NCBI GenBank assembly: GCA_016987375.1
Contig: PJRA01000508.1
Location: 825,328 to 889,327, forward strand
Origin: Brachionus koreanus
Lineage: Eukaryota > Rotifera > Eurotatoria > Ploima > Brachionidae
Length of the DNA: 64,000 nt
Direction of reading: 5' to 3'
Each line of letters begins with the position of its first letter. The stretch's first letter is position 1. The translations under genes were made by a program, and so were the position numbers. Positions 4,445-51,300 of this stretch are shown here, piece by piece. Below the pieces are notes generated by a model. It searched no databases and had not been told where the DNA came from. It was given only the letters and a program-made list of their open reading frames with translations.

Positions 4445-6598
4445 TTAATAATGTAAATTTTTAGATTTGTTTGACTTTAATAAAGTAAACTTAGAAGCTT
4501 TGGGTGATCTGGGGTATTTAAAAGAGGATTTTTTTTTTGTAACGGAATTTATACTAAAATTGTCCCAATAGTTTTCATAAGTTTGTGGATCAATTACATT
4601 CTTTTCAAAATTTTGTCTCACTGGAATAGCTTGATTCTGGCCGGGTATGTCGGAAAGGCCTATGGGACTAGCTTTTCTGGACGAAAATGGTCTACTTTCG
4701 ACTGGCGAGACCATTTGGTTAGCATTTATTGTTTGTCGGTGTTTTCCAACTTGATTCGCATTTGTATAAGTTATTGTTTTGAAACAATTGCAGTATAACT
4801 TTTCCTTGAGAACTCGTCTGAATGAATTTCTGGTCACAATATAGAGAAAAAAATTTATAGAATGATTCAATATATACATCAACTCGGTTATTTTTTGCAT
4901 CAAAATTAGCAACTGAAGCTGATCACCATAGCGAATAAAATAAAAATTCATAATATAATAGTTTATTACATAGGGTATAGTCAGAAATATGAACGAGGCT
5001 GATATGATAATTAAAGTGAGAGTAATTTTAAAATTTTCCACTTGCATTTTTTTGTCTCGAATATCCTTGTAGGACATTTCTTGTTCATGTAGTTCAAGTT
5101 TGGCTCGGATCCATTGATCAGTCGACTTGTACAAACGTGAAATTATAATTGTGTTGAGAATACTCACTATTGCCAATGGTAATATGATAACCACAAATGT
5201 GTAAAATATAGTCAAATGAAGATAGATTTTTCTATAATCAGTCAAAATGTCACAAGATGATTTAAAGTACTCTTGCTTTAAAAAGTTTAGATAGACCGGC
5301 GATTTAGTGTATCGCTCAATGGCGTTTTGGTCTTTTAGTCTTCTCTTGGGAGTTAAAGTCACACCGGTGAGTATTGGCGCATACATGGAGACCAAGACAG
5401 ACAAAATTATAATGACAATAATAAATCTTTTGGCCAATACCGGCTTTGATATGAGGCTAGAATGATGAGGATAAATGACAACCAAGAATCGCTCAAAAGT
5501 GAATGCCACAATTAGCCATGGAGACACGGCTCGGCATGTGTTGCGCAGCAAGGCAAACGAGCGGCACATTGTCTGCTTTTGGTCAGTGATGTTAATTGGA
5601 AAATCAATTTTCCACAAGTCCACAATCTCTTTGCAGGTTTTATCCAAAAAATGTGTGATCAAAAATATGCCGTCCGAGACGGCCAATGCTATCAAATAAA
5701 TGCGTGACGATGTTCGCGGCAATTTTGTACTAAAGAAAACTTTTAGAGATAAAATATTGCCTATTAGGCCGCACATACAAATTGTACATGTCAAATAGAC
5801 CATGATTATGTCAAATGTTCGCCGAGTTTCTCGGCTCCAATTCAGCCAATCTGACTTGGATTGACTCATTTTCTCGTTTTTTAAAAATATGTTTACAAAC
5901 TTAGGATTTTTGCTAGCAAACTTTTTAACTTCCTCAATAGTTCTATCAGTAACAGTTGAGCTATTATTGTTTAGTGTGAGCAAAAATTGATATATTTCGT
6001 TTAGTTCAGCATCACTTGAAATTGAATCTAAATCGAAATAGTAATCTGAATTTAGCTTTGATTTTAGGATGCCTAAGTCAAACGATGACTGAAAATAAAG
6101 CGGATCGTCATATATCTCCTTGTTTATTTGATTAGCTGATTTGAACTCGTAAGCAAGGCTAGCATGTGATGGATTTGACCTAAGACGAAATAAAAGCTCG
6201 TTTATGCTGAGTGTTTTGTTCGTAGAATTTCGATTTAAATCTTTTTCTTCAAATTTTTCGGCTTCCAAATAAGATTTGCCAAACGGATTAGATTTATAAG
6301 AAGATTTGGATAAAAATGAATTAAAAATTTTCCTATTAAAAGTTTGAATGCTGCTTTTGTTGATAGCTTGAGACCTTGAATCAATAATAAGCAAAGAGAA
6401 TATAAAATAATAAATTAAAAAGGTATTATAGCTGTTTGTGGCATAAATTAAGAGATTAGAGGAAATATATTTAGATCTATTTTTGATACAATATTTTCGA
6501 TTAGGATAATTTTTTTTGTTCATGTTGTTGAAAAATTTTGGCAATTCTATTTTTCTAATTAAAATATTAGTTATTCTTTCCTTGCTGAATTTAGCCAT
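4445..6598 (-). CDS. rhodopsin-family (class A) G-protein-coupled receptor, peptide-receptor-like
   Basis: Intronless frame, 717 residues, seven membrane segments: TM1 262-286 (GN in GLIGNILSL), TM2 300-322 (LAVSD), TM3 345-377 with ERF at 369-371 in place of DRY, TM4 392-412, TM5 457-490 (ILP), TM6 524-550, TM7 565-587 (NHSINFFLY in place of NPxxY, followed by FRR). C345 and C449 can form the usual disulphide between TM3 and extracellular loop 2. The ectodomain is unusually long, about 260 residues, Asn/Ser-rich, preceded by a hydrophobic stretch at 51-76 ending near SRSQA that could be a cleaved signal peptide; Met26 is a possible alternative start. TM6 has FLTIPY where most receptors have CWxP. 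The NHSINFFLY/FRR signature resembles protostome FMRFamide/myosuppressin-type receptors, but the ligand cannot be read from sequence. The ~130-residue tail is Ser/Lys-rich. Confidence 0.9.
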   Translation of the reverse strand: MAKFSKERITNILIRKIELPKFFNNMNKKNYPNRKYCIKNRSKYISSNLLIYATNSYNTFLIYYFIFSLLIIDSRSQAINKSSIQTFNRKIFNSFLSKSSYKSNPFGKSYLEAEKFEEKDLNRNSTNKTLSINELLFRLRSNPSHASLAYEFKSANQINKEIYDDPLYFQSSFDLGILKSKLNSDYYFDLDSISSDAELNEIYQFLLTLNNNSSTVTDRTIEEVKKFASKNPKFVNIFLKNEKMSQSKSDWLNWSRETRRTFDIIMVYLTCTICMCGLIGNILSLKVFFSTKLPRTSSRIYLIALAVSDGIFLITHFLDKTCKEIVDLWKIDFPINITDQKQTMCRSFALLRNTCRAVSPWLIVAFTFERFLVVIYPHHSSLISKPVLAKRFIIVIIILSVLVSMYAPILTGVTLTPKRRLKDQNAIERYTKSPVYLNFLKQEYFKSSCDILTDYRKIYLHLTIFYTFVVIILPLAIVSILNTIIISRLYKSTDQWIRAKLELHEQEMSYKDIRDKKMQVENFKITLTLIIISASFIFLTIPYVINYYIMNFYFIRYGDQLQLLILMQKITELMYILNHSINFFLYIVTRNSFRRVLKEKLYCNCFKTITYTNANQVGKHRQTINANQMVSPVESRPFSSRKASPIGLSDIPGQNQAIPVRQNFEKNVIDPQTYENYWDNFSINSVTKKKSSFKYPRSPKASKFTLLKSNKSKNLHY

Positions 6599-11974: not shown

Positions 11975-12303
11975 AATTAAATATTCTAATTTATTTGAAT
12001 TTAAAAAGAAAAAAAAATAGTAAAATAAAAGCTTTTTAATATAAAGATAAAGGTTTGTCAATCAAAAATTTAAATCTTCTTTCGAGCAATTAGATTAAAG
12101 GTTTGCTAAGCAAGAAAAAAACTTTTTAAATAACAGTATTTTCAATATTTTACTTTTGTCACAAATTATTTAAATTATTATAAATCATAACCTATTATTT
12201 TAATATTTCAAAAATAAGTGAAAAATAGTGGGTGAAATAACGGTTTTTTAAACAAAACTTTCATTATACTTTTAAAACTTAATGTGAAATACAAATAAAA
12301 ATC
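11975..12303. repeat. ~330-bp direct repeat, copy 1
   Basis: Same-orientation copy of 13000-13334. Both begin with an ATATTCTAATTTATTTGAAT-like word and end with CTTAATGTGAAATACAAATA. Long shared runs, for example TATAAAGATAAAGGTTTGTC and GTGGGTGAAATAACGG, with small indels. The copies lie 1,025 bp apart and flank 12,304-12,999. Confidence 0.85.
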
Positions 12304-12827
12304 GAACCCATCCTTTTTGGCAAAATTAAAATTTATCGCATAAAATATTTTTTCTTAAAAAAAAAACGATTTAAATTGATTATTGATTTTATTTCCTGAA
12401 AAAATAGAAAGCCGAAATTTTTATTTTAGATAGAGAGCTATAACATACTTTATTAAATTATTTTTTTGAATAATTTTTATTTATATAGAAAGAAATAACT
12501 TTTGATCAGTTTGTATTTGAATTTCACAATAACTACAAGTTTTGTAGTATTACTTTTTAAAAAATAAATTAGTTTATTAAAGTTATGATGAAATTCTACA
12601 TTTGATAAAATTAAATTATCTTATTTAAGAATTTTAATTCTTGTTAAAGCTTTAAATAAAAAAAAAGTTTAAGTAATTCTAAAACAATTATGACTGTAAT
12701 TCTAGCATTAACACGATTTCTGAATATTGTCAAGTTAAATGATAAAATTTTACAAGTTGGAAAACTTCAGTTTTCATTTTTATGGAAGAATTATAGAAAC
12801 AAAGCGATCCCTGCAATGGACAACCAA
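12304..12827. other. AT-rich spacer between the direct repeats
   Basis: No gene or motif seen. It may be the 5' part of the inserted element whose 3' tail follows, or unrelated DNA inside a tandem duplication. Confidence 0.35.
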
Positions 12828-12995
12828 AGGCAGGCAATATTTAGAAGACCATCAATGACTTGAAGGATAACAATAATGAAAAAGCTCGGTGAAATGGGAA
12901 TGATGTTGAAGCGAAGGTTAAAGGACCGACTTTAATGTAAATCATTTGTAATGAAACTATGCACCACCAAGAGCGTATAAGAATAAAAAATTCTC
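12828..12995 (+). mobile_element. LINE 3' tail, copy 1
   Basis: A GC-richer island. Its last part, GAAATGGGAATGATG-like through CTATGCACCACCAAGAG to an A-rich end, is similar to the reverse complements of the tails at 20,071-20,230 and 61,451-61,777. In one frame it reads ...KAR-stop-NGNDVEAKVKGPT, matching ARRNGNDMGRSKCEGKRST of the 61 kb copy. The A-rich end abuts direct-repeat copy 2. Confidence 0.65.
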
Positions 12996-12999
12996 TTTA

Positions 13000-13334
13000 A
13001 ATTAAAATATTCTAATTTATTTGAATTTAAAAAGAAAAAAATAAAATTAAGTAAAATTAAAGCTTTTTAATATAAAGATAAAGGTTTGTCAATCAAAAAT
13101 TTAAATCTTCTTTCGAGCAATTAGATTAGAAAAAAACTTTTTAAATTACCTTATTTTATTCAATATTTTACTTTTGTCACAAATTATTTAAATTATTATA
13201 AATCATAAGCTATTATTTTAATTTTTCAAAAAAAAGTGATAAAAAAGTGAAAAATAGTGGGTGAAATAACGGTTTTTTAAACAAAACTTTTGTTCATTAT
13301 ACTTTTAAAACTTAATGTGAAATACAAATAAAAT
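13000..13334. repeat. ~330-bp direct repeat, copy 2
   Basis: Partner of 11975-12303, starting directly after the A-rich end of the LINE tail. Differences are small indels, such as loss of a ~16-nt word near 13,126 and a short duplication around AAGTGATAAAAAAGTG. Confidence 0.85.
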
Positions 13335-15281
13335 CAAAATTTTTTTTAAGATAGTAAAATTTATATTTTTAAACTTGAATTAATTATTAATTCAAATAAA
13401 TAAATTAATTTCCTAAAAAATTTTCAAAAATATGAAAAGATAATATGAAAAAAGAATATAGCAGTTGGAGAAGTAGTTTTAATTGTAAAAACATAGTAGC
13501 ATTGAATCGTATCAGAGACGACATTTGGCAGTTAAAATAGAATTCATATGGCTTTTTATATATCCACAATTTAATAGAAGTTTGACTGAAAATTCTTTAA
13601 AATTGAATAATTTAATATAATTGATAATCATTTTTAAAAATTAAACGAAAATGAAAAATGCAATAAAAAGTATTCAGAAAACTAAATAAATTTTTTTTTA
13701 ATTGTTTTAAGTTTTTATTTTACAAAAGTAGAAAAATTTTGCAGATCGGGTTTATTTGGCTAGTATATTAAAACCAGAGAAATAAAGATGTAATTAGTAT
13801 TTTTAGTTAAATTTAATAAATAAATGAGACAAATTTTTTGTCGGTATGAGATTTATTATCAAAAAACTTCTACAAAAATCTAAAATTCGCCATTTTAATA
13901 TTTTTCGGGTATATTAATAGTTTATTTTTTATATTAGCATAAAATAAGAAAATAAAAGAAGAAAATACGAAACACATAATTTTTTTGGATATACAACACA
14001 ATAGAAAAAACATAATTTATGTTAAATAGAAAGAGCTAGGTCAATCCTATAAAATATCGAATTTTTTGTAAAATTTCTATCATTTCTCCGAAATTAAAAA
14101 ATTTTTAGAATTTTAGGGATTTTGTCTAAAAAACGAATTATTAGAAAATAAACAAAATCTTATCAAATAAACACTACTAGACTAAAAACGCACGGCAATT
14201 AATATTTATAAATAACTAAAAGAATTCAAGCTTTTTTACATATTTTATTATAATTAAAATTCGTTCTTTAAAACACGACGCCATTTTTTTTTGGTTAAAA
14301 TCTTTTAAAATCACTAATTTTTTCCTACGTATTTATATCAAATATTCATTTTCTATTGTTAAGAGCTGTTTTGACCCTGATGGTGTAAATGTTGAAGATT
14401 GAAAAAATAGACTAACATTAATATTGAACAAAATTATTCAAAAAACCATGCGCTCAAAAATTTCAAATTTTAAAAATTGAAATTAAAAAAAATTGGTCAA
14501 CAAATATTACTAAAGGAGAGACTATTAAAAGCTTGCTTTTTAGAGTTGCTTTTTTATATCTTATAATTTTGAATAGGAAAAAAGTTAGTTAAGGCTATCT
14601 TAATCCATCTTATGCTAGGTAACGATAAATCAAAATTTGTATGTTCAATGGAGACAATTAAAATTTGAAAATCATTTTATATTTCAACTGTTGTCTTGAA
14701 CGTTTTGTTCGGCGTAAACCTTTTTGTTCAATAAGTAAAATTTAGTAAGTAATTTAAATTTAATTTTGAAATACAAAAAATAATTAAATATTGCTTGATC
14801 TCTTTTTAATTAAGTTACAAATGTTTTAGTTAGATTTAAGCGTTCAATTTAATCTAAGGGTCTAAAGATAAGATAGTATGGAAAGAGTCAAAATTAAAAA
14901 TTCTAAATTAAATTTTTATATAATTTTCTTAGTTATTTTCAGAAGATAATTGCATAATTTAAGCCAAAAATTAAAAAAAATTAAGCAATAACAAAACAAT
15001 AAAATCTGGCGATTAACATTTAGGTTCGGTGAAATCTCAAAGAAAATTGAGAAATATTTTAAATTGGCAATATTTTTAAAACTAATTTAATTTATATAAA
15101 CAAAATTATCATTAAGGAATAAAAAAATTCTTTAAATCAATTTTCCGGTTAATAACTGGTAAAAAAATATTTTTTAATATTACTTTAAAAATTAAAAAAT
15201 CCAAATTAATTAAAATTAATCTAATTTTTAGAAAAAATAAATTAAAGCTAAATTCTGATAAAAATAAAAAACATTATTAAA
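13335..15281. other. AT-rich region upstream of the first ZC3H gene
   Basis: No coding sequence seen. The right edge is the 5' region of the ZC3H gene: a CTAATTTTTAG at about 15,220-15,230 looks like a 3' splice site and is conserved at about 24,478-24,488 before the second gene, which suggests a 5' UTR intron ending about 50 nt before the start codon in both. Confidence 0.45.
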
Positions 15282-17462
15282 ATGTTAGAGGAAGGAGAAA
15301 TAGATGAAAATGATTTTGAGTTAGAAGAAAGTTCTCAATTAAAAATAAACACTGAACCAAGTCCCACAAACAGTCAAAAACCTCCACTTTCTCCGGCAGT
15401 ATCTGATCGCTCGTCTAGCTCTAAATCGAGCATGACTAAGCGAAAACATCGGCATAAATCTAAACAAAGCAAACGTAAAAAACTTGAAAATGTGCATGAT
15501 AAGGATGAGAGATCAGAAATAAAAACAGAAACATCGAATGCTCCCATGTCTCTCTTTGATCTATTCAAGCAGAGCCAATTTAACAAAGAAACAGGCTCAT
15601 TTTTAAATCCGGTAATAACCGAAAAAGAAAATAACAAACCAAAAACTCAGCGAAAACCTGGTCCATTGTTGAGTTTACCTCAAGAGTTTCAAGAAACAAA
15701 GAAAAAAACCTTGCTGGCCGAACCACTAGAATCAGAAATGACTGTTAGTGTTGAGTCAATAGAGAAAAAAGTTGAGAAAAAACGAAAATATATCGAAATA
15801 CAAAAAGAAAGACAAAAAAAAGACGCTGAACGACAACAAGAGTTGAAAGAGAAACGTGAAAAAATACCATGCCAATTTTTCCTAGTTGGCCGATGTCAAA
15901 AAGGCGATAAATGTCCATTTAGTCATCAGACACCTAAAAAATTGGAATTGTGCAAATTTTATGCAAATGGCTATTGTTCCAAAATGGACAAGTGTTTTTT
16001 TATGCATTCCGATTTTCCGTGTAAATTTTTCTACAGAGGACAATGCACTCAGGGAGAAAAATGCCGCTTTTCACACGAACAAATAACAAATCCACAATTG
16101 AGAGAAGCATTCGAAAAGTATTTGACTGAAGTGGCTCATGAGACAGTAATAAAACCATCACTTTTGGCAACACCAGCTTCTGCTCTTTTGCCTACACCTG
16201 AGCCTGTGCCTTTAATGAATTTACCATTGAATACTGATGTGGATGAAAGAGAATTGATTAATACTGGTGATGTTGATCTAAGGACTTTAACTGTTCTAAA
16301 CGATTTTGATAGACTAAAAAAAGAATTGATTGATAAAATAATGAATAATGTGTCCAATTTTGACACTTCAAAACAAAAAGTGATGGCTGAATTATTGGTA
16401 AAACTTGTAAATACGGATAATGGCGAATTGGCGAAAACATTGACTATCGATGCAATTAAATCGTTATTATTTAGTTTAGATCAAAAGCCAACAACCACAA
16501 TTGAAACTGTTGGTGAAGATAAAATTTATGAAGATAGAATTGATGAAGACGAAAGATTTGATTTGCACATTGATGATGTAAGAGATAGTGAAATTGAAGA
16601 AGAACAAGAACAAGAAATAAACGGCAATTGTGGTGAATTTGAATGGAAGTTGTTTGAAATAGATGTTCAACCATCTAGTTTGTGGGATAGTCCACCAAAA
16701 GAAATTGTCTTTGATCAAGATCAAGAATGTGATCCAAGAATTAAATATTATTCAAATAGATCAAATTTACAAAATTTGCCAAATTATCATTTAAAAATAC
16801 AGCAACAAAATCAAAAACTAGAAATGTCAAATGCATCTCCTGTTTATAGTGAATCAAAACAAGTCATACAATCGCTATCACCAGTTCAAACAAATACAAC
16901 TAATGCAACTACTAGTACAATTAACATCACTAATGCTAGTTCGACTAATTCAAAAGTTTGTTCTAAGCCAGCTAGAGTTGATCCTCGTTTGGCAGCACGT
17001 AATGCTCAGCAATCATCTTCATCTCCGTCACAAGCTCAATCACATGCACATACACAATTGAATTCAAATTATTCAATTCAACAAGATAATAACAGGACTG
17101 ATTTGTTAAATAGACAAATTAAAGATCAATCATTGCTTTCCTCTTTGCCAGATATTCAATTACCTAAAGACTTAAAAAACACTTTGCTTAGTTTTAGTCA
17201 ACCAAACGTTGATACAAACTATGGCCAAAGTGCCAAACTATCTTTTGAAGACTACAAAAAAAAACTACAAAAACCAATATCACCTAGTTATTCTTCTTTG
17301 TCAAATAGTATTAGTAATTGCATGTCCAATAGTTCTGTTGAAATTGAAAACGAAACAGTAGAGTCAGAGTCAAAATCTTTGTTACCAAATATACCGTCTT
17401 ATACAGTGAATTTACAAGCGCCCCAGTCTTTGCACGAACTGCTCAGAAATTTTCAGTCCTAA
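15282..17462 (+). CDS. ZC3H4/ZC3H6-like CCCH zinc-finger protein, copy A
   Basis: Complete 726-residue frame. Three tandem CCCH fingers, each C-x7-C-x5-C-x3-H, lie at residues 197-215, 224-242 and 247-265, preceded by a Lys/Glu/Arg-rich segment (155-195) and a basic patch (KRKHRHKSK near 53). DPR motifs at 484 (DPRIKYY) and 567 (DPRLAARN) fit the ZC3H4/ZC3H6 and Drosophila Suppressor-of-sable family. In animals ZC3H4 acts in the nucleus with WDR82 to stop transcription of extragenic RNA early; that role is inferred from the family. The middle is acidic (430-470) and the C-terminus Ser/Gln/Asn-rich. The start MLEEGEID is conserved in copy B. The coding exon is uninterrupted. From codon 83 onward it is the same protein as copy B; residues 1-82 differ at many positions but have equal length. 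Confidence 0.88.
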   Translation: MLEEGEIDENDFELEESSQLKINTEPSPTNSQKPPLSPAVSDRSSSSKSSMTKRKHRHKSKQSKRKKLENVHDKDERSEIKTETSNAPMSLFDLFKQSQFNKETGSFLNPVITEKENNKPKTQRKPGPLLSLPQEFQETKKKTLLAEPLESEMTVSVESIEKKVEKKRKYIEIQKERQKKDAERQQELKEKREKIPCQFFLVGRCQKGDKCPFSHQTPKKLELCKFYANGYCSKMDKCFFMHSDFPCKFFYRGQCTQGEKCRFSHEQITNPQLREAFEKYLTEVAHETVIKPSLLATPASALLPTPEPVPLMNLPLNTDVDERELINTGDVDLRTLTVLNDFDRLKKELIDKIMNNVSNFDTSKQKVMAELLVKLVNTDNGELAKTLTIDAIKSLLFSLDQKPTTTIETVGEDKIYEDRIDEDERFDLHIDDVRDSEIEEEQEQEINGNCGEFEWKLFEIDVQPSSLWDSPPKEIVFDQDQECDPRIKYYSNRSNLQNLPNYHLKIQQQNQKLEMSNASPVYSESKQVIQSLSPVQTNTTNATTSTINITNASSTNSKVCSKPARVDPRLAARNAQQSSSSPSQAQSHAHTQLNSNYSIQQDNNRTDLLNRQIKDQSLLSSLPDIQLPKDLKNTLLSFSQPNVDTNYGQSAKLSFEDYKKKLQKPISPSYSSLSNSISNCMSNSSVEIENETVESESKSLLPNIPSYTVNLQAPQSLHELLRNFQS

Positions 17463-17881
17463 ATTTCCTCTCTTTATTTTTTTTATTTTCAAGTCCGTGT
17501 AATTTACGATGAATATTTTTTTCTGTAAAAATATGCTTGAATATTTTTTTTTCGACGGCTTTTATTTTATTTTTGTTTTGTTTTGTTTTATTATGTTCCA
17601 TTCAAGTGCAGATTGTGCACTTGGTTTATTATTTTGTGAGATAATTCTATTTTAAATGAATTATGTTTAAACAGCAAAAAAAAAAGAACAATTGCTTCAT
17701 ACTTTTCAATTTTCATATTTTTCTTAAATTATGCTGTAATTTTAAAAATTTTTATTTATAAAAGCAAGAAAATTATTTGAAATTTTAAAATTAAAAAAAT
17801 AAATAAAAGTTGGATTTAGTTAATAAAACAAAAATAGATTGTGTTTTTATCATTATTTGGTTTTAAATTTTCTTTGAAAAT
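15528..17881 (+). repeat. near-identical duplicated tract, copy A
   Basis: This ~2,350-bp tract matches 24792-27145 almost base for base at a constant offset of 9,264. It covers codons 83-726 and about 420 bp beyond the stop. I noticed one difference (TAATAAAACA against TAATTAAACA near 17,825). Left of it the two genes are clearly diverged; right of it the match ends abruptly. Confidence 0.92.
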
Positions 17882-20070
17882 TAAACATCTTTAAAATAAA
17901 CAAATTACACGTAATTAGATTCTTGAGAATTATAAAATAATCATGAAAATATAAACTAAAAATTAAGAAATTTTAACTGTTGAATCATCAATTAAATTTT
18001 TTCTTTATCAATTAAAATCAAATCATCAAATAATAATAAATAATTTTATTGATTTATAAAACTAAAATATCTTGAAAATTAAAATAAAAATTTTTGAATT
18101 GAGAAAACCTGTATTAAGAAAAATGATTAAATCAATTCAATTTTCTTGGCGAATTATAATATATGCACATATTTTTATCAAAAATTTCCAAAAATATAAT
18201 AAAATATACATATATTAAATAATAAACATGTGTTTAAATTATCATCTAATAAATTAAACAAAATATTTATTGTATAAATAATATTAACTAAATTTACTTA
18301 AAAATTATTTTTATTTTGATGTCGCTTAAATCATCAAGTTTTCAACTTTTTATTAATCCTTAAAATATTTAATTATCAATCATAAAAGATTGACAAAAAT
18401 TTAGGTTTTCTTGATCAATTTTATAACTTATTAATTTTATTATTATTTTTGAACATTGAAATTGATGAAATTGATGATATAAATGATGGCTTTAATTTCC
18501 AAAAATCTCAGTAAAATTGGAAATGTGGGCTTGACCCCGCATTTAAAACTGAAAATTATGAATTAAATTAGTGGGAATCAAAAAATATTTTTTAATTATT
18601 TACTTAACTTTTTAGTATTTTTTTAAGTCTGATTATAAAAATCTCAAATTTACTTTATAAATTTCAGTTTTATGTGAAGTCAAGCTCGGATTTTAGTCAA
18701 AAGTTTTCCCATGCATGATATCGCAAATTTTCGTCTTCACATAAAATTACTAAAAAGGTTAATATTTTTTTATCAATAAATTGAAAACCTTTTACTGACA
18801 AATTATTATAGTTTTTAATTTTCTAATACTAAAAACCAAACCAAAAAAAAAAAAAGCTTAAGTATGAATCAGAGTCATCAAGGGTTCAGAATTTTTTTTA
18901 AAACAAATTAATCTAAATGTTAAGTTTAATTGAATTTAACCATTTTTCTAAATCCTATTAAAATAATCTCATTTATTATGAATATTAAAAAAAATATAAA
19001 ATTAGTTATCAAATTAATCAAAAAAAATAAAATTTTTGATACAAATTAATTAACAATATTTTTTAGATACATTTAAGTTTAATATAACGTTTATATATAA
19101 ATAACATCATATATATTTTTCAATATCAACTACTAATTCTTTTTATTCAACTCTTTTTCAAAGTTTTTTAATTTAATTTTTACTTATTAAAACAATTAAA
19201 TTTCTTCAATCATTAATTATACAACAATTTGATTTCTAGTTTTAATATAATTGTAAATTATTTCTCATTGATGCTTAACAATATTTTATTTTAGACAGAT
19301 TTATTTTACGCGATAATTCATAAGCTTACGCAATATCAAATAAGTGATAGTCGTACAGTGCGACTTAAGGCAGTCCTTCATCCATTAATTAATGATTAAT
19401 GACTTGGTCTAGATAAAAAAGTTGGGTAAAATTTCTGAATCGAAATTTTGAGAATAATGTATTTAAATTTTAAAGATTTTTCTCGCCTGGACATTATTAT
19501 AAAATATTATGGCTCATATTTTTTAATTTTATTCAGTTCGTTTTTATTTTTTATAAATAATAAAAAATTAGAATATAAAATATTAAATTTATTTTCAAAT
19601 AAATATAGGCGTAATTAGAAAAATTAACATAAAAATTTGAGTTTTTTTGATTCATAAATGGAGATTTAACTTGTATTGCGGGCCAGCAAAAAATCGACAA
19701 CATTGAATAAATTTCAAATACCCCAATATCTTTTAATAAATTGATTTTATTTTATAAACTTAAATACTAAAATTTAACTGAAATTTTTGTTTCGGACTGT
19801 TTAGTCAACTGGCCCAACACTAGATTTTACGATAAATAATTTACTGTTTTGAAATAATACTCTCTGGTTACTTAGAAAGAATTTTTTTGCCTACATATTT
19901 TACTTAAATTTAAAATTTAGTTTCCAAACCTTTAATAAATAAAATAAGAATAAGAAATTTTTAATAAAATTTCTTAAAAAACTATCAATTAAAAGTAAAA
20001 CTGGAATAATTTAGAATAAGTTTGATTAAAATGTTGATTCTTAATTTTTGCTAAATTTTATCTAAATTTT
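17882..20070. other. AT-rich intergenic region
   Basis: No gene seen. It contains an ~80-nt inverted repeat: TTTATGTGAAG near 18,670 pairs with CTTCACATAAA near 18,740, flanked by partly matching bases. Low-complexity A/T otherwise. Confidence 0.5.
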
Positions 20071-20230
20071 TTTTTGCTTATTCATTCCTTGTTGAGCATA
20101 GGGTCATTACTGATTTCCACTCAACTTAATATTTTGCCTTTACCCTTACATTTGGATGAGCTCTTTCGTGATTGAGGACGTACATTTTACTGTCTCTCTT
20201 GAGGGCGAGGTTACTTTGGAAGACCAGCAA
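20071..20230 (-). mobile_element. LINE 3' tail, copy 2
   Basis: On the minus strand one frame ends ...LNHERAHPNVRVKAKY-stop, followed by AGTAATGACCCTATGCTC, a short spacer and a run of A. The AATGACCCTATGCTC core is identical in the 61.4 kb copy and close to the 12.9 kb copy, so these are 5'-truncated copies of one LINE family. Confidence 0.7.
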
Positions 20231-20454
20231 TATTCATTATTGAAGAACTTTTTATTTTTCTTTCATTCTAATTAACAAATTTTAATAAGGAAATTATACC
20301 CAAACCAAATTTTTTGTAAAAAAAATATTTAGTATTACAAAAATTTATTTTTTTACTACATATTTCAACTTAAGAGCGGTCCCAAGACCCCTATAAATTT
20401 TTCCTATTGTTTGTCATTCCATTTTTGGTCTTTTCGATAAATTTTCAATTCATT

Positions 20455-20640
20455 CAAAATCAATAATCAGTAATCTTCTAAATTGGATTAAAGCCTTTGA
20501 CAGGAAGTAGAAAACGTGTTGTAGTCTGAGATAAGACTTCCAATTGAATAATTTTAGACAGTGGTGTGCCACAAAGACCAGTCTTAGACCCTTTATTAAT
20601 CATCTACAAATTTTTTATCATCTACTCGGACTCATAATTT
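20455..20640 (+). mobile_element. LINE reverse-transcriptase fragment
   Basis: Two overlapping frames give WIKAF then LTGSRKRVVV, and later LDSGVPQRPVLDPLLIIY. These are the thumb-side RT blocks WLKAFL.GR.QRV and SGVPQGSVLGPLLF of CR1/Jockey-type LINEs, with frameshifts and stops. It is a relic distinct from the larger element starting near 21.1 kb. Confidence 0.75.
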
Positions 20641-21079
20641 TTTTTATATCCCAAAATATTCTTAAAATAGGATAACTTTGGATCAAGCTAAATCAAAAAT
20701 TTGACTATTCACAATTTTTACTGGTTTTTAGTTAACCAGTTTTTGGTCAGCCAAAATTGATTTACTTTCTGGTCGACCAAATTTACAACTTAAATACAAA
20801 TTTTGAATTCAAAATTTTAATGTAAAGTATAATGACTTTTATTTTCTAATAAAATAAAATTTACTCTTTAATTAATCCTTAAAAAAGATTATATTTAACC
20901 TTGATCTATTAAACCATTTTTCAAAAATTGCAGTGTTTAATTTAGAAAATAGATTTTTTGCTTAGTTTTAAAATGTTTCAAAAAATCATTTTAAAATTTT
21001 TTGCTTTTAACATTCAAAGGTAAGAGAGTTCTGAGGCCCTTTTGTTACTTACTTTATTTGTTATTACATTAGATAATCT

Positions 21080-23850
21080 GAAGTGTTTGAAATTGAACAA
21101 AAAGAATTCGAACAATTGTTGAACTAGAAAAAGAATTAAAAATAGAGAGAGAAAAATCCAAAAAGATTACTACTGAATCAGAACAGCTACAAAACTATTT
21201 GCTAGTCGAGCAGTTTCTCAAGTCGAAGGTAAAAAGTTAGAGCGCCCAACTCAGCAGATTGAGATGCTTAACTCGGTTGCTAGTGAGCAGAAAGAGAGAG
21301 CGAGAAGAAATAAAAATGTAATCTTTGTAATGTTTTTTAAAATGTTTATATACAAGTGCCACTTCGTTGGGAAATAAGTTCAACGAGTTAGAAGTGATTG
21401 CCATGAGTCAAAATTTAGATATTATTTTAATTACTGAGATTTGGTTCTCAGAGTTTTTCTCTCCATGTCTGAGTGGCTATGAAATATTAACTTTAATATA
21501 AATGGCAGAGTGGGGGAAGGGTATTTATTTATGTTAATAAACGTCTAGGCTCTTACGAAATTGTTGACGAAAATTTATGTGATATGGAGTAGGAGGTAAT
21601 ATGGAGTGCTGTAACTACCTCCGCTATGAGTTAATTCTAGCTGGCTGTGTCTATAGACCTCCAAGTAGTTCAAATGATGACAAGATTTTAAGCAGTATCA
21701 ACCATCTTTCCAAAACTCAATTGACGGATCCAGTAGTCTACTTGATTTACTAATTAGTGAAAATAAAGAGCGTATTCATAGCGTTAATCACGGCCCACCG
21801 CTTGGATCAACAAATAAAGGGCACCATTACCTATCTTGGAAATATTATTTGAAAACTGCAAGAAAGAATTCAAAGCGCTTTCGATCATCGGTTTTGAACT
21901 ACATGAGAGGTGATTTCGCTCCTATTTTTATTTTTTATGACAAAGTAAATTGGATCAATTCATTTGAGGATTTAACATTTGATCAAATGTACAACAAGTT
22001 TATATCGTATCATGAAAATGCTTGTGAGCCCTTTATTTCAAACAAGAGTTTAAAGAGTAATGAAAAACCATGGACGTGTTAAGAACCGAAGTTAATAATA
22101 AAAAAAAAGTACTCAGCTTGGAAGCCCTTTGAAGCAAGTGGTTTGTGCGAGTCAAAAAAGAAAAAGTATATAGAATTAAGAAACAAGTGGAAAAAAATGC
22201 TAATAAAAATTATGAAAAGAATTTAGCCAAGTTATCAAAATCGAAAGTTTGTGTTCAGCTATTCAAATCGACACACTGTAATTAAGCCATCGGTAAAAGC
22301 ACTAATTGATGAAAGTGGAAAAAATATCTCAGATATGGTTGACCATCTGTCTGCTCAGCATCTTAAAAATGTAGAAAAGGTAAGTGAGAAGTTGTCAAAG
22401 TTAGATACGAGTAAAGCCATCGGACCAGACAGGACTCATGGAATTTTACTCAAAAATTGTGCTAAAACGTTTGCTCTTCCTCTTTCAATCTTGTTCAGGA
22501 AATCATTAAGTTTTGGTGAGCTACCAGAAGTTTGGAAGCAAGCAAATGTAACACCGCTACATAAAGGGGGCTCTAGACTGTCTCCACAAAATTATCGTCC
22601 AGTATAGTTAACTTGTATTGTATGCAAAGTTTTGGAGTTCATAATTAAAAAACAAATATTAAAGCATTTGCCTAAAAACAATTTAATATCCACATCACAG
22701 CACGGTTTCTTACCAAAATAGTCATGACTGACCAATTTATTGGAAATCATGGATTTTATTTCTGAAACTATGTCAAATGGCTTACCGGCTGACATCATTT
22801 ACACAGATTTTGCGAAAGCTTTCGATGAAGTCTCTCATAGATAGTATAAACTAAAATTTTTTCGATTTGGTGAAGGCCTGATAAATAGGACAAAGGCGTT
22901 TTTTATAGAACGCTTACAAATAATAGTATTAGGGGATACCAGCTCAAAATGGATAAGACTTTAAAGTGGAGTTCAACAAGGTTCAGTGTTAGGTCCTCTC
23001 TTCTTTTTTATTTATATAAATAATATGTTGAGAATTGTCCAAAACAATTGCAAAGCTTTTGCTAGAGACACGAAGATCTTATCAACAATTGATAATTTAA
23101 ATTTGATTTATAACCTACAATCGGATAACAATAAAGTGTGTAAATGGTCAAAAGAATGGTCGACTCAGTTAAATATAGAAAAATGAATAGTTGTTCATAT
23201 TGGCTGCAAAAATTCAGAGTTTGACTATAAAATTAGTTCAAAACTTTGGGTAAGTCAAACGTTAAAAAGGGAGTTGGGTATTTACATACAAATTGATTTA
23301 AAATGGACTACTCAAGTCAAAAATGTTAAAGCTTATAAGATTTAAAAAACAAATAAAATGTTGGGCCTAATTAAGAAAGCATTTAAGTATCCTTGTAGTA
23401 AGACTATCAAATTATTATATTGTTCAATGGTTAGACAAGATCTGGAGTTTACTGTCAGTGCTTCGTGTCCTTATACGGAAAAAGACATAAATGAACTTGA
23501 GAGAGTTCAACGAAGAACAACAAAGTTGATTCCAAAAATGCGTAAATTGGATTATCAACAACATTTGTCGAGACTGGATTTAACTGACTTGAGAACAAGA
23601 AGATTAAGAGTTGATCTAATCCAGTTGTTCACGTTGGTGAACAATTATGAACAAATTGAATTTAATAAAGGAATCAACTACAGTCTTAACACAAAACCTG
23701 GTAGCCGAAGATATGAGTTGAGGAGAAATAGCTATTGTCTTAGTCGTGAAGGAATAAATAACTGTCTTCCTGTAGTTTTATACTACTACTTGTACTAATT
23801 TTTCTTCAACAACAAAAATAAAATAAAATCATTTAATTTTTATTACATAA
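21080..23850 (+). mobile_element. non-LTR retrotransposon (CR1/Jockey-like), inactive
   Basis: About 2.7 kb, plus strand. Order seen: an acidic ORF1-like tail (21,100-21,300), an endonuclease (21,350-21,720, with ITEIWFSE and AGCVYRPPSS), a linker frame (21,849-22,082), then reverse transcriptase from 22,380 (SKAIGPD, LHKGGSRLSPQNYRPV, IYTDFAKAFDEVSH, SGVQQGSVLGPLFFFIYIN) and the C-terminal block (LERVQRRTTKLIP, RLDLTDLRTRRLR) to about 23,798. The active-site box is AFARDTKIL, with Arg (23,064-23,066) where the first Asp of the catalytic pair should be. Stops interrupt the frame at many places (after NYRPV, in LPK*S*L, SHR*Y, RL*SGV, EK*IV). It ends in an AAAAT-repeat-like tail near 23,830. 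It lies wholly between the two ZC3H genes. Confidence 0.88.
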
Positions 23851-24545
23851 TAATTTTATTTTCATTGAAAAAAAAAGTAAAATTACAAGCCAAATAAAAT
23901 GGGCCGAAAATCCTTTCGGCTTTTGAGTGTTAGTTTAGGCTAATTTTAATTAAAATCTTTTTTTGGAGGACAAAATTAAATTAATTCCGCTAAAGTGAAA
24001 AATATGAATCTTGGTAATTAGCAATTAGTATTATTTTCAGGCATCTCTAAACACCTTGAATGATCTCTTTTGAATAGATTTTACAAATTAACTTAATCTT
24101 AAAATTTGAGTTTAAAATTCATAAAATCAGACAATTTTTAAGTCACAAGTAAATTATCAAATTTAATGTTTTAAAATGTAAGAACTAATTCTATATACGC
24201 ATTAGAAAAATCTTGTAATAAAATTAAATGTTTCTTAGGGAACTAAAAACTTATGTACTTATAATTTCATAATTAAACTATAAACATTAGAAATAGTTAA
24301 GAATGATTTTTTTTCATAACTAATATAAATTTAATTTCAAGAAAAAAAAGGGACACAAATTTAAATTAATTTAATTAATTAAAGCGCTTAATAAAAAGAA
24401 ATATAAAAAAATATTTATCATTATAAATAACTATTTTGTGACAGAATTTCAAAGATAAATTCTTTTAAAAATTAATCTAATTTTTAGAAAAAAAAACTGC
24501 CTAAAAATAAAATCTCTAGAAATAAAAACCAAAGCTAAAAAGATA
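23851..24545. other. 5' region of ZC3H copy B
   Basis: AT-rich, no frame. It shares with the 5' flank of copy A mainly the stretch ATTAATCTAATTTTTAG before the start, a likely 3' splice site of a 5' UTR intron. The flanks are otherwise diverged. Confidence 0.45.
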
Positions 24546-26726
24546 ATGTTAGAAGAAGGAGAAATAGATGAAAAAGATCTTGAACTTGAAGAAGGGGTTG
24601 AACTGAGACTAAACACTAATACGGGTCAAACACACAGTCAAAACCCATCATTATCTCCTACTGTATCTGAACGCTCGTCAAGCTCTAAGTCGGGCATGAC
24701 TAAGCGAAAACATCGGCATAAATCAAAGCATAAAAAACGTAAAAAAGTGGAAAATTCAAAAGAAAAACTGGAAGAGACTGAAACAAAGTCTGAAACATCG
24801 AATGCTCCCATGTCTCTCTTTGATCTATTCAAGCAGAGCCAATTTAACAAAGAAACAGGCTCATTTTTAAATCCGGTAATAACCGAAAAAGAAAATAACA
24901 AACCAAAAACTCAGCGAAAACCTGGTCCATTGTTGAGTTTACCTCAAGAGTTTCAAGAAACAAAGAAAAAAACCTTGCTGGCCGAACCACTAGAATCAGA
25001 AATGACTGTTAGTGTTGAGTCAATAGAGAAAAAAGTTGAGAAAAAACGAAAATATATCGAAATACAAAAAGAAAGACAAAAAAAAGACGCTGAACGACAA
25101 CAAGAGTTGAAAGAGAAACGTGAAAAAATACCATGCCAATTTTTCCTAGTTGGCCGATGTCAAAAAGGCGATAAATGTCCATTTAGTCATCAGACACCTA
25201 AAAAATTGGAATTGTGCAAATTTTATGCAAATGGCTATTGTTCCAAAATGGACAAGTGTTTTTTTATGCATTCCGATTTTCCGTGTAAATTTTTCTACAG
25301 AGGACAATGCACTCAGGGAGAAAAATGCCGCTTTTCACACGAACAAATAACAAATCCACAATTGAGAGAAGCATTCGAAAAGTATTTGACTGAAGTGGCT
25401 CATGAGACAGTAATAAAACCATCACTTTTGGCAACACCAGCTTCTGCTCTTTTGCCTACACCTGAGCCTGTGCCTTTAATGAATTTACCATTGAATACTG
25501 ATGTGGATGAAAGAGAATTGATTAATACTGGTGATGTTGATCTAAGGACTTTAACTGTTCTAAACGATTTTGATAGACTAAAAAAAGAATTGATTGATAA
25601 AATAATGAATAATGTGTCCAATTTTGACACTTCAAAACAAAAAGTGATGGCTGAATTATTGGTAAAACTTGTAAATACGGATAATGGCGAATTGGCGAAA
25701 ACATTGACTATCGATGCAATTAAATCGTTATTATTTAGTTTAGATCAAAAGCCAACAACCACAATTGAAACTGTTGGTGAAGATAAAATTTATGAAGATA
25801 GAATTGATGAAGACGAAAGATTTGATTTGCACATTGATGATGTAAGAGATAGTGAAATTGAAGAAGAACAAGAACAAGAAATAAACGGCAATTGTGGTGA
25901 ATTTGAATGGAAGTTGTTTGAAATAGATGTTCAACCATCTAGTTTGTGGGATAGTCCACCAAAAGAAATTGTCTTTGATCAAGATCAAGAATGTGATCCA
26001 AGAATTAAATATTATTCAAATAGATCAAATTTACAAAATTTGCCAAATTATCATTTAAAAATACAGCAACAAAATCAAAAACTAGAAATGTCAAATGCAT
26101 CTCCTGTTTATAGTGAATCAAAACAAGTCATACAATCGCTATCACCAGTTCAAACAAATACAACTAATGCAACTACTAGTACAATTAACATCACTAATGC
26201 TAGTTCGACTAATTCAAAAGTTTGTTCTAAGCCAGCTAGAGTTGATCCTCGTTTGGCAGCACGTAATGCTCAGCAATCATCTTCATCTCCGTCACAAGCT
26301 CAATCACATGCACATACACAATTGAATTCAAATTATTCAATTCAACAAGATAATAACAGGACTGATTTGTTAAATAGACAAATTAAAGATCAATCATTGC
26401 TTTCCTCTTTGCCAGATATTCAATTACCTAAAGACTTAAAAAACACTTTGCTTAGTTTTAGTCAACCAAACGTTGATACAAACTATGGCCAAAGTGCCAA
26501 ACTATCTTTTGAAGACTACAAAAAAAAACTACAAAAACCAATATCACCTAGTTATTCTTCTTTGTCAAATAGTATTAGTAATTGCATGTCCAATAGTTCT
26601 GTTGAAATTGAAAACGAAACAGTAGAGTCAGAGTCAAAATCTTTGTTACCAAATATACCGTCTTATACAGTGAATTTACAAGCGCCCCAGTCTTTGCACG
26701 AACTGCTCAGAAATTTTCAGTCCTAA
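24546..26726 (+). CDS. ZC3H4/ZC3H6-like CCCH zinc-finger protein, copy B
   Basis: Complete 726-residue frame, same length as copy A. Residues 1-82 are diverged (KDLELEEGVELRLNT against NDFELEESSQLKINT near the start) with conserved islands SSSSKS and MTKRKHRHKSK. From residue 83 (ETSNAPMSLFDLF) to the stop I see no difference from copy A, so the three CCCH fingers (197-265) and the DPR motifs (484, 567) are the same. Likely a nuclear RNA-binding protein of the ZC3H4 early-termination pathway, by family. Both copies look intact, with conserved start contexts, so both may be expressed and differ only in the N-terminal tail and promoter. An assembly artefact is less likely because unique DNA and a LINE separate them and the 5' parts differ. 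Confidence 0.88.
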   Translation: MLEEGEIDEKDLELEEGVELRLNTNTGQTHSQNPSLSPTVSERSSSSKSGMTKRKHRHKSKHKKRKKVENSKEKLEETETKSETSNAPMSLFDLFKQSQFNKETGSFLNPVITEKENNKPKTQRKPGPLLSLPQEFQETKKKTLLAEPLESEMTVSVESIEKKVEKKRKYIEIQKERQKKDAERQQELKEKREKIPCQFFLVGRCQKGDKCPFSHQTPKKLELCKFYANGYCSKMDKCFFMHSDFPCKFFYRGQCTQGEKCRFSHEQITNPQLREAFEKYLTEVAHETVIKPSLLATPASALLPTPEPVPLMNLPLNTDVDERELINTGDVDLRTLTVLNDFDRLKKELIDKIMNNVSNFDTSKQKVMAELLVKLVNTDNGELAKTLTIDAIKSLLFSLDQKPTTTIETVGEDKIYEDRIDEDERFDLHIDDVRDSEIEEEQEQEINGNCGEFEWKLFEIDVQPSSLWDSPPKEIVFDQDQECDPRIKYYSNRSNLQNLPNYHLKIQQQNQKLEMSNASPVYSESKQVIQSLSPVQTNTTNATTSTINITNASSTNSKVCSKPARVDPRLAARNAQQSSSSPSQAQSHAHTQLNSNYSIQQDNNRTDLLNRQIKDQSLLSSLPDIQLPKDLKNTLLSFSQPNVDTNYGQSAKLSFEDYKKKLQKPISPSYSSLSNSISNCMSNSSVEIENETVESESKSLLPNIPSYTVNLQAPQSLHELLRNFQS

Positions 26727-27145
26727 ATTTCCTCTCTTTATTTTTTTTATTTTCAAGTCCGTGTAATTTACGATGAATATTTTTTTCTGTAAAAATATGC
26801 TTGAATATTTTTTTTTCGACGGCTTTTATTTTATTTTTGTTTTGTTTTGTTTTATTATGTTCCATTCAAGTGCAGATTGTGCACTTGGTTTATTATTTTG
26901 TGAGATAATTCTATTTTAAATGAATTATGTTTAAACAGCAAAAAAAAAAGAACAATTGCTTCATACTTTTCAATTTTCATATTTTTCTTAAATTATGCTG
27001 TAATTTTAAAAATTTTTATTTATAAAAGCAAGAAAATTATTTGAAATTTTAAAATTAAAAAAATAAATAAAAGTTGGATTTAGTTAATTAAACAAAAATA
27101 GATTGTGTTTTTATCATTATTTGGTTTTAAATTTTCTTTGAAAAT
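24792..27145 (+). repeat. near-identical duplicated tract, copy B
   Basis: Partner of 15528-17881. Identity starts inside the coding sequence at GAAACATCGAATGC and ends at TTTCTTTGAAAAT, where the two 3' flanks part. Confidence 0.92.
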
Positions 27146-48300: not shown

Positions 48301-51300
48301 ATTCAATAGAAAACATCAATTTTTTGGATAAGGAATTTTTTGCTTTAATCAAACCACTCATACAAAGAGTGCCTCTAAAGTAAGCTTTTAAAAAAAAATA
48401 TTTCTTTCTATTTAGAAATAAAAATTTAAAGTGATCAAGAATTATTCAAGCGAATTCTAATAATGATAAATTATAAAAAATCGAAAGTTATTGAATCTAC
48501 ATTTTTCCCATTTTTTATAATCAATAGCATAATTCAGAAACCTGAAGTTATTTCAGAAGTATTTTCAATTTTTGAAATAGTTGGAAATCTATGCTTCTTT
48601 AATTATCAAACCGATTCAGTCTGGGATAGAACTGATATTTATAAAAAAATAAGTGAAAAAGAAGAATATCGAGTTCGCTTATTAGACACTTTTGAATGCT
48701 CGTTTAATAAATTTATAAATTCAAACGATTCAAACGATAAAAAACTTTTAAAAACTGAAAAAAACCTGAAATTTATTTCAAAAGCATGTTTATTCGTTCT
48801 AACAAAAGGAAATTTAAGAAACCTAATGAAAGATAATTATTCAAAATTTATAATTCTAATAACAAAATTGTTTGTGCATGATAATATTTGCTATATTGAT
48901 CAAGAAAAAAGGGATATTGTTAATTTTGACATAAAATCAAAATTTAAGAAACTTTTGGATAATCATGACAACTTTCTAGTTTTAAATTATTCGGCATTAG
49001 AAACAGATATAAAAAAAACACTTGCAAACTGGAGCTGTTTGCATGAAATTTTAAAAATTGTTGCTGATAATTCAAATCAGGAAATTGCTGACTTTATTAA
49101 ATCGTTTTTGAATGAGATATCATCAAAATCTTTTTCAAAATTGAACATTACAGACCTAGTTAAAATTTGTAGTTTAATTTTAAAAATAGAGCTACAGGTT
49201 CACAAGAATGTTGAGAAAGATATATTCAACAACATCACTACCAAAATAGATCAAATGAACCAATATGATTTGAATCATTTGTCAAGATTTCATGAGTACA
49301 ATTCAGAATCTGTGCACAATTTAATTCGTGAAGTTATTAAAAAAAAATGGCCAAGTGATTCCAATCATTCATTTGAAATTTTTAAGTTTATCTTTGAATG
49401 CAACAATTTTCTACGATTATTTCTTTATACAAATTTTATTCAGAATGATCTTATGTTGCAGTCCAAAATAGCTCAGATTGTTTCCTTATTAGAAAATACT
49501 TTTGATAATTTGATAGACGGAAATATTGATGTTTACCTAATTCGTTTGCTAAATCAGAATAAAAAGACATTTTTTGAGCTAAATCAACTTTTCAAAAACC
49601 AAATGGCTGTAAAATTTACTGACGATATAGCTAGAATTCAAAATCTAGTAGAATTTCGTTTTGAACAAATAGTGACTTTTGAAGCTTTTCTGGCCTTGAT
49701 GAATCAATTTCTTAGTTATTTTAAAAAGCTCAATTTAAAAAGAATAAACATAGATTGTGAAAATTTTGAGAAAAAATTAAAATACTTAAATACAAATTTC
49801 AATGTAGTAAAAGTAAAAAGTTTAGTTGAATGCAATATAGATGATATTGTAAAAAATGAATTGAAAATAAATTTTAATAAAGTGATTGGTTTTGATGAAA
49901 TAGACAAAACAATCATAGATAAAATAAGACATTTTTTTGGTATCTTAAATGAAAATATATACCTTCAATATTACACAAAGGAGTCAGTCAATGAATATAA
50001 TAAGCCAGTTGGGTTGGAATATTTCACAAAACAAATTATTGATTTTTCATTGGAAAAGTATAAACGATTGGAGAAAAAATTAAATAATGGAACACTTGAA
50101 TTAGAATATTTTTCAAAATTAGTGAAAATTGGAAATAACTTGCAAATTGGAGAAGAAAATGATGTTTACAAAACTGAGCTTAGAAAAATAATGCAAAATG
50201 CTAAAATGACAAATGATAAAATTGAATTTCGATTAAATCAATTAAAGCATTTTTTAAATTTACCAAAAATAAAAGAAATATCTGAATTAATTTTGGATAT
50301 AAAAGAAAAAGAAAATTTGCAGGGTAATTTTATACCATTAGAACAAATTTTGCAATCAGTAATTTGAATGTCAATATTTTTTTCAACTTTTTTTATAATT
50401 TTTTTAGCTAAATGAGAGTCAAAATCGAATCAAATATTTAAATGATATTACAAATGACTCAATGAAACTTTTTGAATCTTTAGATAAATTAAGTGATGTT
50501 AGATTCGTCAAATGTCTGAGGAAATATATTGAAAAATTTGAATTTATCGATTGGCTAAGATCCAGCACTAAAAGTAAAACAACCTTAAAAATAAAGTAAA
50601 ATTTTATTACAATAAAATAAAAAATTTAAGATTTAAATGAGTTGAAACTACTTTGTGAATTTGCATCTCAGTCACAAAATGAAGGTGCTTTGGAAGTTGT
50701 TAGAGTGCAGTCTCTCTTGCTTGTTGGAACTGCTTTTGCTCCTTTGATTTATGATATGAATAGCACTTGTTCTTATGAAAAGATGGTTGGATACATTATG
50801 CAAATTTTTAAAAATTTCTTTCGAAATAAAGAACTACCAGAAAAAATTGTAAAAATACGACAAGCTAGATTTGATTTTAAATTTAAAATTTTTTAAGGAT
50901 GCTATTTCACAAGAAAAAAACTGGCTTAAAGATGTAAAAGATTCAATGGGTAATACAGAAGCAAATTCTCTCAAACAAGTTGAACGCATAAATAAATATG
51001 GCATTTTTGATTTTGGTCTTATATCCAGTGAGAAAATCGATGATTTGGTAAGATCAAAATTATCAATATTATTAAGAACATTCTGGCAAATCTCTGCAAA
51101 TTTAGCATAATTTTAATTTGAACAAATTTGGCTGTTGTGCATTTTGCAGATATTTTGCACATCATTGGCATACATTGACTTTATAAACAGCTATATTGAA
51201 TTTAGGTATTTTGTAAAAACCTTGAGGAAAAAAGTTAAAAAGTAACTCTATTAGCATTAATTTTTATTCTTTTTTTAATTTTGTACCAAATTTCACAAAA

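Follow-up and report, generated by a model that had tools for sequence, protein, structure and literature searches.

Two genes for CCCH zinc-finger proteins, each with an intron-free CDS, lie head to tail in the window, that is, the whole stretch of 64,000 nucleotides of Brachionus koreanus DNA analysed here. From codon 83 to beyond the stop codon the two genes are almost letter for letter the same, and before codon 83 they have clearly diverged. We consider it probable that they are old tandem paralogs in which about 2.35 kb was later overwritten by recent ectopic gene conversion; the mechanism is what we infer from the pattern of differences.

Divergence along the gene pair

We aligned the two coding sequences base by base at a fixed offset. 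Both are open over 726 codons, the offset is constant at 9,264 bp and the register is kept from end to end with zero indels. The initial annotation, whose span (15528-27145) runs from the start of the copy 1 tract to the end of the copy 2 tract, had proposed the equal length, the constant offset and many indel-free differences before codon 83, and all three were borne out by the open reading frames and the alignment. The 62 differences between the coding sequences all fall within the first 246 bp (log10 P = -58.8 for random placement over 2,181 bp), where they hit 42 codons and cause 28 amino-acid changes, the other 14 being silent. Successive 30-bp bins contain 3, 9 and 15 differences, then 0 from 15528 onward, which makes the left edge sharp.

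Table 1. Coordinates of the gene pair and of associated features in the window.
Feature	Position	Strand	Evidence or remark
Copy 1, CCCH gene, intron-free CDS, 726 aa	15282..17462	+	ORF; Pfam CCCH matches over cut-off
Copy 2, CCCH gene, intron-free CDS, 726 aa	24546..26726	+	ORF, Pfam, protein search; protein 96% identical to copy 1
Diverged 5' coding part, copy 1, codons 1-82	15282..15527	+	62 differences, dS 0.72, dN 0.23
Diverged 5' coding part, copy 2, codons 1-82	24546..24791	+	same comparison: 62 differences, dS 0.72, dN 0.23
Near-identical tract, copy 1	15528..17881	+	2,354 bp, one difference at 17825
Near-identical tract, copy 2	24792..27145	+
Three CCCH zinc fingers, copy 1, residues 196-265	15867..16076	+	Pfam, alignment
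Three CCCH zinc fingers, copy 2	25131..25340	+	Pfam, alignment
EEGEI, copy 1	15288..15302	+	fits ARS2-recruitment motif [ED][ED]GE[ILV]
EEGEI, copy 2	24552..24566	+
26-nt block upstream of copy 1	15212..15237	+	identical to one upstream of copy 2
26-nt block upstream of copy 2	24468..24493	+	identical to that of copy 1
AATAAA, copy 1	17822..17827	+	putative poly(A) hexamer
Reverse-transcriptase-like fragment of decayed repeat, between copies	22965..23186	+	RVT_1 E 3.8e-06, 27.2 bits, below 29.6 cut-off

The tract that begins at this edge (15528-17881 = 24792-27145) has a longest identical run of 2,297 bp, against 31 bp in the diverged 5' part. It reaches 419 bp beyond the stop codon, and this non-coding part includes its single mismatch (17825/27089). 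The earlier observation of one difference from 15528 to about 420 bp past the stop, silent and non-coding sites included, therefore holds over the 2,354 bp. When divergence was estimated by the Nei-Gojobori method, codons 1-82 gave a dS of 0.72 and a dN of 0.23, and codons 83-726 gave zero for both; the contrast at synonymous sites has P = 8e-26 by a Fisher test on the synonymous counts rounded to whole numbers. The base-by-base alignment and the profile of silent divergence, which had been proposed as checks, thus show divergence that is not uniform along the gene.

Two simpler causes were considered and rejected. If the pair had been duplicated recently and the N-terminus had then changed fast, the silent sites would not be expected to differ there as they do, and the 3' non-coding DNA does not differ. 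Protein constraint is not the cause of the identity either, since near-identity also covers the 419 bp of 3' non-coding DNA.

The window has a G+C content of 25.7% and contains further open frames. On the reverse strand these are a 717-aa ORF (4445-6598) with a rhodopsin-type seven-transmembrane receptor domain (PF00001, E 3.8e-20) and a 228-aa ORF (1405-2091) with methyltransferase-domain matches, the best being PF05175 (E 2.8e-07). The forward strand carries a 634-aa ORF (48463-50367) with no Pfam match at E 0.1 and a 2,882-aa open frame (51919-60567) that matches an AAA_5 (dynein-related) ATPase domain.

Relatives and copy number

The comparison with related species was made at the level of protein sequences only. 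In a protein search the nearest relatives of copy 1 were a homolog, P0001 (75%), and a Brachionus calyciflorus protein (60%), and the full copy 2 gave the same ones; with the N-terminal 299 residues of copy 2 as query there was no closer relative (top hit 52% identity, none above 61%). In the N-terminal part, copies 1 and 2 are identical at 54 of 82 residues, copy 1 and P0001 at 47 of 81, and copy 2 and P0001 at 50 of 81. In the remainder the copies agree at 644 of 644 residues, compared with 503 of 620 to P0001. Since the copies are barely closer to each other than to P0001 at the N-terminus and identical in the remainder, the pair looks old to the left of the edge and recent to its right. 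Within this family the N-terminal part changes more quickly than the rest: between copy 1 and P0001, 34 of 81 residues differ there and 117 of 620 in the remainder. Even when we scaled by the N-terminal rate relative to P0001, about 99 amino-acid differences were expected in the remainder, and 0 of 644 were observed.

A tree of the N-terminal part (four sequences, 87 columns) favoured copy 2 with P0001 by only 0.5 log units and kept all three topologies in the 95% set; it is therefore no independent evidence for a duplication before speciation. The tract tree groups copies 1 and 2, either alternative topology having an AU P of 0.0005. Among the N-terminal site patterns, copy 2 equals P0001 at 9 sites, copy 1 equals P0001 at 6, and the copies are alike with P0001 different at 12; in sharing with B. 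calyciflorus, 8 sites favour copy 1 and 2 favour copy 2. These patterns may be a hint of an old split, and no more.

In the searched part of the 83.3-Mb assembly we detected no third copy, and the copy counts are accordingly lower bounds. The protein search matched at 2 places, each inside the window, and there were likewise 2 matches for the N-terminal DNA of copy 1. Of 4 matches to the PF22623 profile, 2 exceed the cut-off, and these lie in the window. With the 3' DNA (17463-18400) we obtained 7 matches, namely the query locus, copy 2 (430 bp, 99%) and, at 69-73% identity, five weak AT-rich matches, which we take as chance or old repeats; two of these five (on contigs C53 and C27) touch the 3' non-coding part of the tract.

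Flanks and edges of the tract

Homology in the flanks was assessed by comparing alignment scores with those of simulated first-order Markov sequence pairs. Upstream of the ATGs, the score for 300 bp was reached by 0 of 300 simulated pairs and that for 100 bp by 1 of 300; residual homology between the copies persists just upstream of the ATG. Over 2,000 bp upstream we observed no excess similarity (13 of 60 simulated pairs match the score), and it is on this absence of similarity in the 2-kb upstream DNA that the two copies would be credited with different promoters. Beyond the right edge, where homology was sought, the score was reached by 229 of 300 simulated pairs for 100 bp, 12 of 300 for 300 bp and 12 of 100 for 1,000 bp. 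The left edge is thus inside homologous sequence, with codons 1-82 to one side and, further out, a 5' flank that is homologous near the gene, while the right edge coincides with the point up to which homology can be detected; strictly speaking, only the left one qualifies as a conversion edge. The sharp gene-conversion edge described earlier, on the left, stands as such, as the switch there occurs within homology.

The 26-nt block shared by the two upstream regions contains an acceptor-like CTAATTTTTAG, whose last base in copy 1 is 15231, 50 bp ahead of the start codon; in copy 2 the acceptor-like AG has its end at 24487, 58 bp ahead of the start codon. The block may have a splice role. At the 3' end, the place of the AATAAA of copy 1 is occupied in copy 2 by AATTAA, which creates ATTAAA one base on (27087-27092) and is the single difference of the tract. 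Both hexamers are putative poly(A) signals, and the right edge lies 54 bp past the last AATAAA in copy 1 and 53 bp past the last ATTAAA in copy 2.

When 22200-23780 was used as query and 40 of 174 candidates were scored, the repeat between the copies matched at no fewer than 67 other genomic places, with 76-97% identity. Upstream of copy 1 (11982-13243) there are two direct repeats (116 bp at 86% and 85 bp at 95%), about 1,018-1,031 bp apart, which are probably a separate small tandem duplication. Downstream of copy 1, the segment 18154-18362 is matched at 71-72% by contigs C1, C3 and C7 and is probably an old repeat.

Protein family and N-terminal motif

The PF22623 (KIAA1064-like) profile scores 34.1 and 34.2 bits for the two copies (cut-off 27). 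When copy 1 was compared with solved structures, the fingers of KIAA1064 (2cqe), which we take to be ZC3H4, were matched at E 8e-18. Judging from the family, both are likely ZC3H4 / Su(s)-type (ZC3H4-like) nuclear RNA-binding proteins. In one study, ARS2 is said to recruit ZC3H4 to nascent transcripts.

The EEGEI sequence begins at residue 3 in both copies. According to passages of PMC9402713, [ED][ED]GE[ILV] is the ARS2-binding motif of Red1, ZFC3H1, ZC3H4 and others, and it is named ARM in a section of PMC10720265. This motif occurs in 55 of 103 proteins (101 homolog-search hits plus copies 1 and 2), where shuffled residues predict 0.58, and lies within the first 40 residues in 17 of the 22 best copy 1 hits, the other five being without the usual start. 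Codons 1-9 contain one silent change and no replacement, and the Ser- and Lys/Arg-rich block of codons 43-67 has a dN of only 0.07, as against 0.34 for codons 10-42 and 0.52 for codons 68-82. Both N-termini retain EEGEI and the KRKHRHK block and, since these are spared and dN is high elsewhere, the N-termini of the copies differ mainly in their linkers. The proposal of two proteins with the same RNA-binding part and different N-termini is thus borne out with a qualification: the remainder is the same (644 of 644) and there are 28 N-terminal changes, but EEGEI and the basic block are kept and it is mostly linkers that differ.

By analogy with the family, each protein would bind nascent RNA via its three CCCH fingers, its N-terminal EEGEI would let ARS2 bring it to capped transcripts, and it would then promote early termination of transcription. 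The zinc-finger protein may in this way help to stop unwanted transcription. Human ZC3H4, as described in parts of PMC8137146, binds WDR82 and restricts or ends transcription early.

Origin of the near-identical tract

We propose that an old tandem duplication yielded two paralogs and that a recent conversion, single or serial, would have replaced about 2.35 kb of one gene, from codon 83 to where the common 3' region stops, by the sequence of the other, while the first 82 codons and the upstream DNA would have been left diverged. It is plausible that repeated conversion keeps the body alike and that the 5' end drifts beyond its reach. When synonymous sites, non-coding sites and the constant register are fitted together, conversion gives the best fit, and the earlier suggestion of an old duplication overwritten by a tract of about 2.35 kb is thereby supported (dS 0.72 versus 0, non-coding identity, register). 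Among Caenorhabditis paralogs, passages of PMC3966223 give conversion tracts of 117 bp on average with a range of 12-2,958 bp (7,829 pairs), so that 2,354 bp would be near the top of the C. elegans range. The same passages mention that a long tract may be made up of several short ones; single and repeated conversion fit the present tract alike. The length of the tract counts against conversion, as does the lack of independent tree evidence noted above. The longest 5' identity, 31 bp, would also be a short substrate for homologous pairing, supposing that the remainder had once diverged to the same degree; moreover, as homology does not follow the right edge, a second resolving step inside homology would be unsupported.

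The right edge equally fits a copied segment that ends without homology, and no clear homology is found to the right of 17881/27145. Both observations favour a recent partial duplication, in which a 2.35-kb piece of one gene, starting at codon 83 and ending beyond the 3' end, was inserted into a locus where nothing but the old 5' part was left. This could come about by template switching, or by unequal crossing-over with three copies as an intermediate and a later loss, the join being homologous on the left and non-homologous on the right; incomplete duplications are moreover common in C. elegans, where recent ones can be mistaken for conversion, as stated in a portion of PMC3966223. However, the register at codon 83 is exact and in frame, with zero indels over 246 bp, and one locus should have had a truncated or lost 3' part, of which we saw no sign. 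The N-termini also look constrained, with a dN/dS of about 0.3 over codons 1-82 and codons 1-9 free of replacements. This constraint and the join in register on the left make a partial duplication less likely, and we give it a small but real probability.

That the tract is an artefact of assembly, either a repeat consensus placed in both copies or false joins at the edges, seems to us very unlikely. The tract does exceed the length of short reads, and the window has one run of 39 N (61571-61609), which is not necessarily a gap. Nevertheless, the flanks differ on both sides, there is one mismatch within the tract, the diverged 5' parts are in exact register with it, the contigs reach 6.3 Mb, and two copies with no further allele-like one were found in the searched part of the assembly. 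In conversion templated by cDNA, a 5'-truncated reverse transcript of one gene, perhaps the product of a LINE-type enzyme, would have taken the place of the 3' part in the other gene. This would suit a tract that spans the gene interior to the 3' end and a reverse-transcriptase-like repeat fragment between the copies, and the intron test has no purchase on an intron-free CDS. However, cleavage is usually expected 10-30 nt beyond the hexamer, and the tract runs on for 54 bp after the last one in copy 1 and for 53 bp in copy 2; it also has no poly(A) at its edge. We give this route next to no credit.

Ectopic gene conversion thus being preferred, one may ask whether the edge is kept by selection. 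Repeated conversion would then hold the RNA-binding and C-terminal part identical, with the two promoters and linkers protected, and the pair would behave like one gene with two alternative starts; we regard this as rather doubtful. If the N-termini are under selection, the pair would offer a natural test of whether an ARS2-linked termination factor with one shared body can be divided by promoter.

Comparison with known systems

A full-text literature search for ZC3H4 with rotifer found nothing, among the titles listed for Brachionus and gene conversion there was no report on monogonont tandem paralogs, and the main text of two monogonont genome papers (PMC11954553, PMC6555955) does not contain the term 'gene conversion'. 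The process itself is well known, and the pair is a clean and neat new instance of it, with a tract that is unusually clean and long and a left edge that can be read to a few bases. Gene trees of the ZC3H4-type family built on whole sequences could mislead.

With human ZC3H4 and ZC3H6 and with Drosophila Su(s), the proteins share CCCH fingers flanked by disordered regions, as described in parts of PMC8137146 and PMC9402713. According to the same sources, ZC3H4 and ZC3H6 are paralogs and both have the ARS2-binding motif; the human proteins carry two or three tandem copies of the EEGEI-type motif, where we found one, and, unlike the human pair, the paralogs here are tandem and almost identical. 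In a rotifer, conversion has been proposed for near-identical alpha-tubulin copies within one bdelloid species; from what sections of that report say (PMC3464624), those are collinear or homologous copies in a degenerate tetraploid genome, whereas the present pair, in a monogonont, is tandem with an edge inside the gene. The hsp16 modules of C. elegans are identical with fully diverged flanks and were also read as conversion, but passages of PMC3966223 describe them as an inverted repeat 416 bp apart, and the Brachionus genes are direct and 9.26 kb apart.

The closest precedent that we have seen is col-12/col-13, two tandem collagen paralogs of C. elegans whose flanks are very dissimilar and whose ORF is 99.5% identical, interpreted as an old duplication plus conversion in the part of PMC3966223 that treats them. 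Like our genes, they are a tandem pair with near-identity beside diverged DNA, and the reading is the same. They differ in that, as far as that part goes, the intron-bearing ORF regions of col-12/col-13 are alike and the genes lie 1.8 kb apart, whereas in Brachionus the edge falls inside the ORF, which gives two N-termini, and the offset is 9.26 kb.
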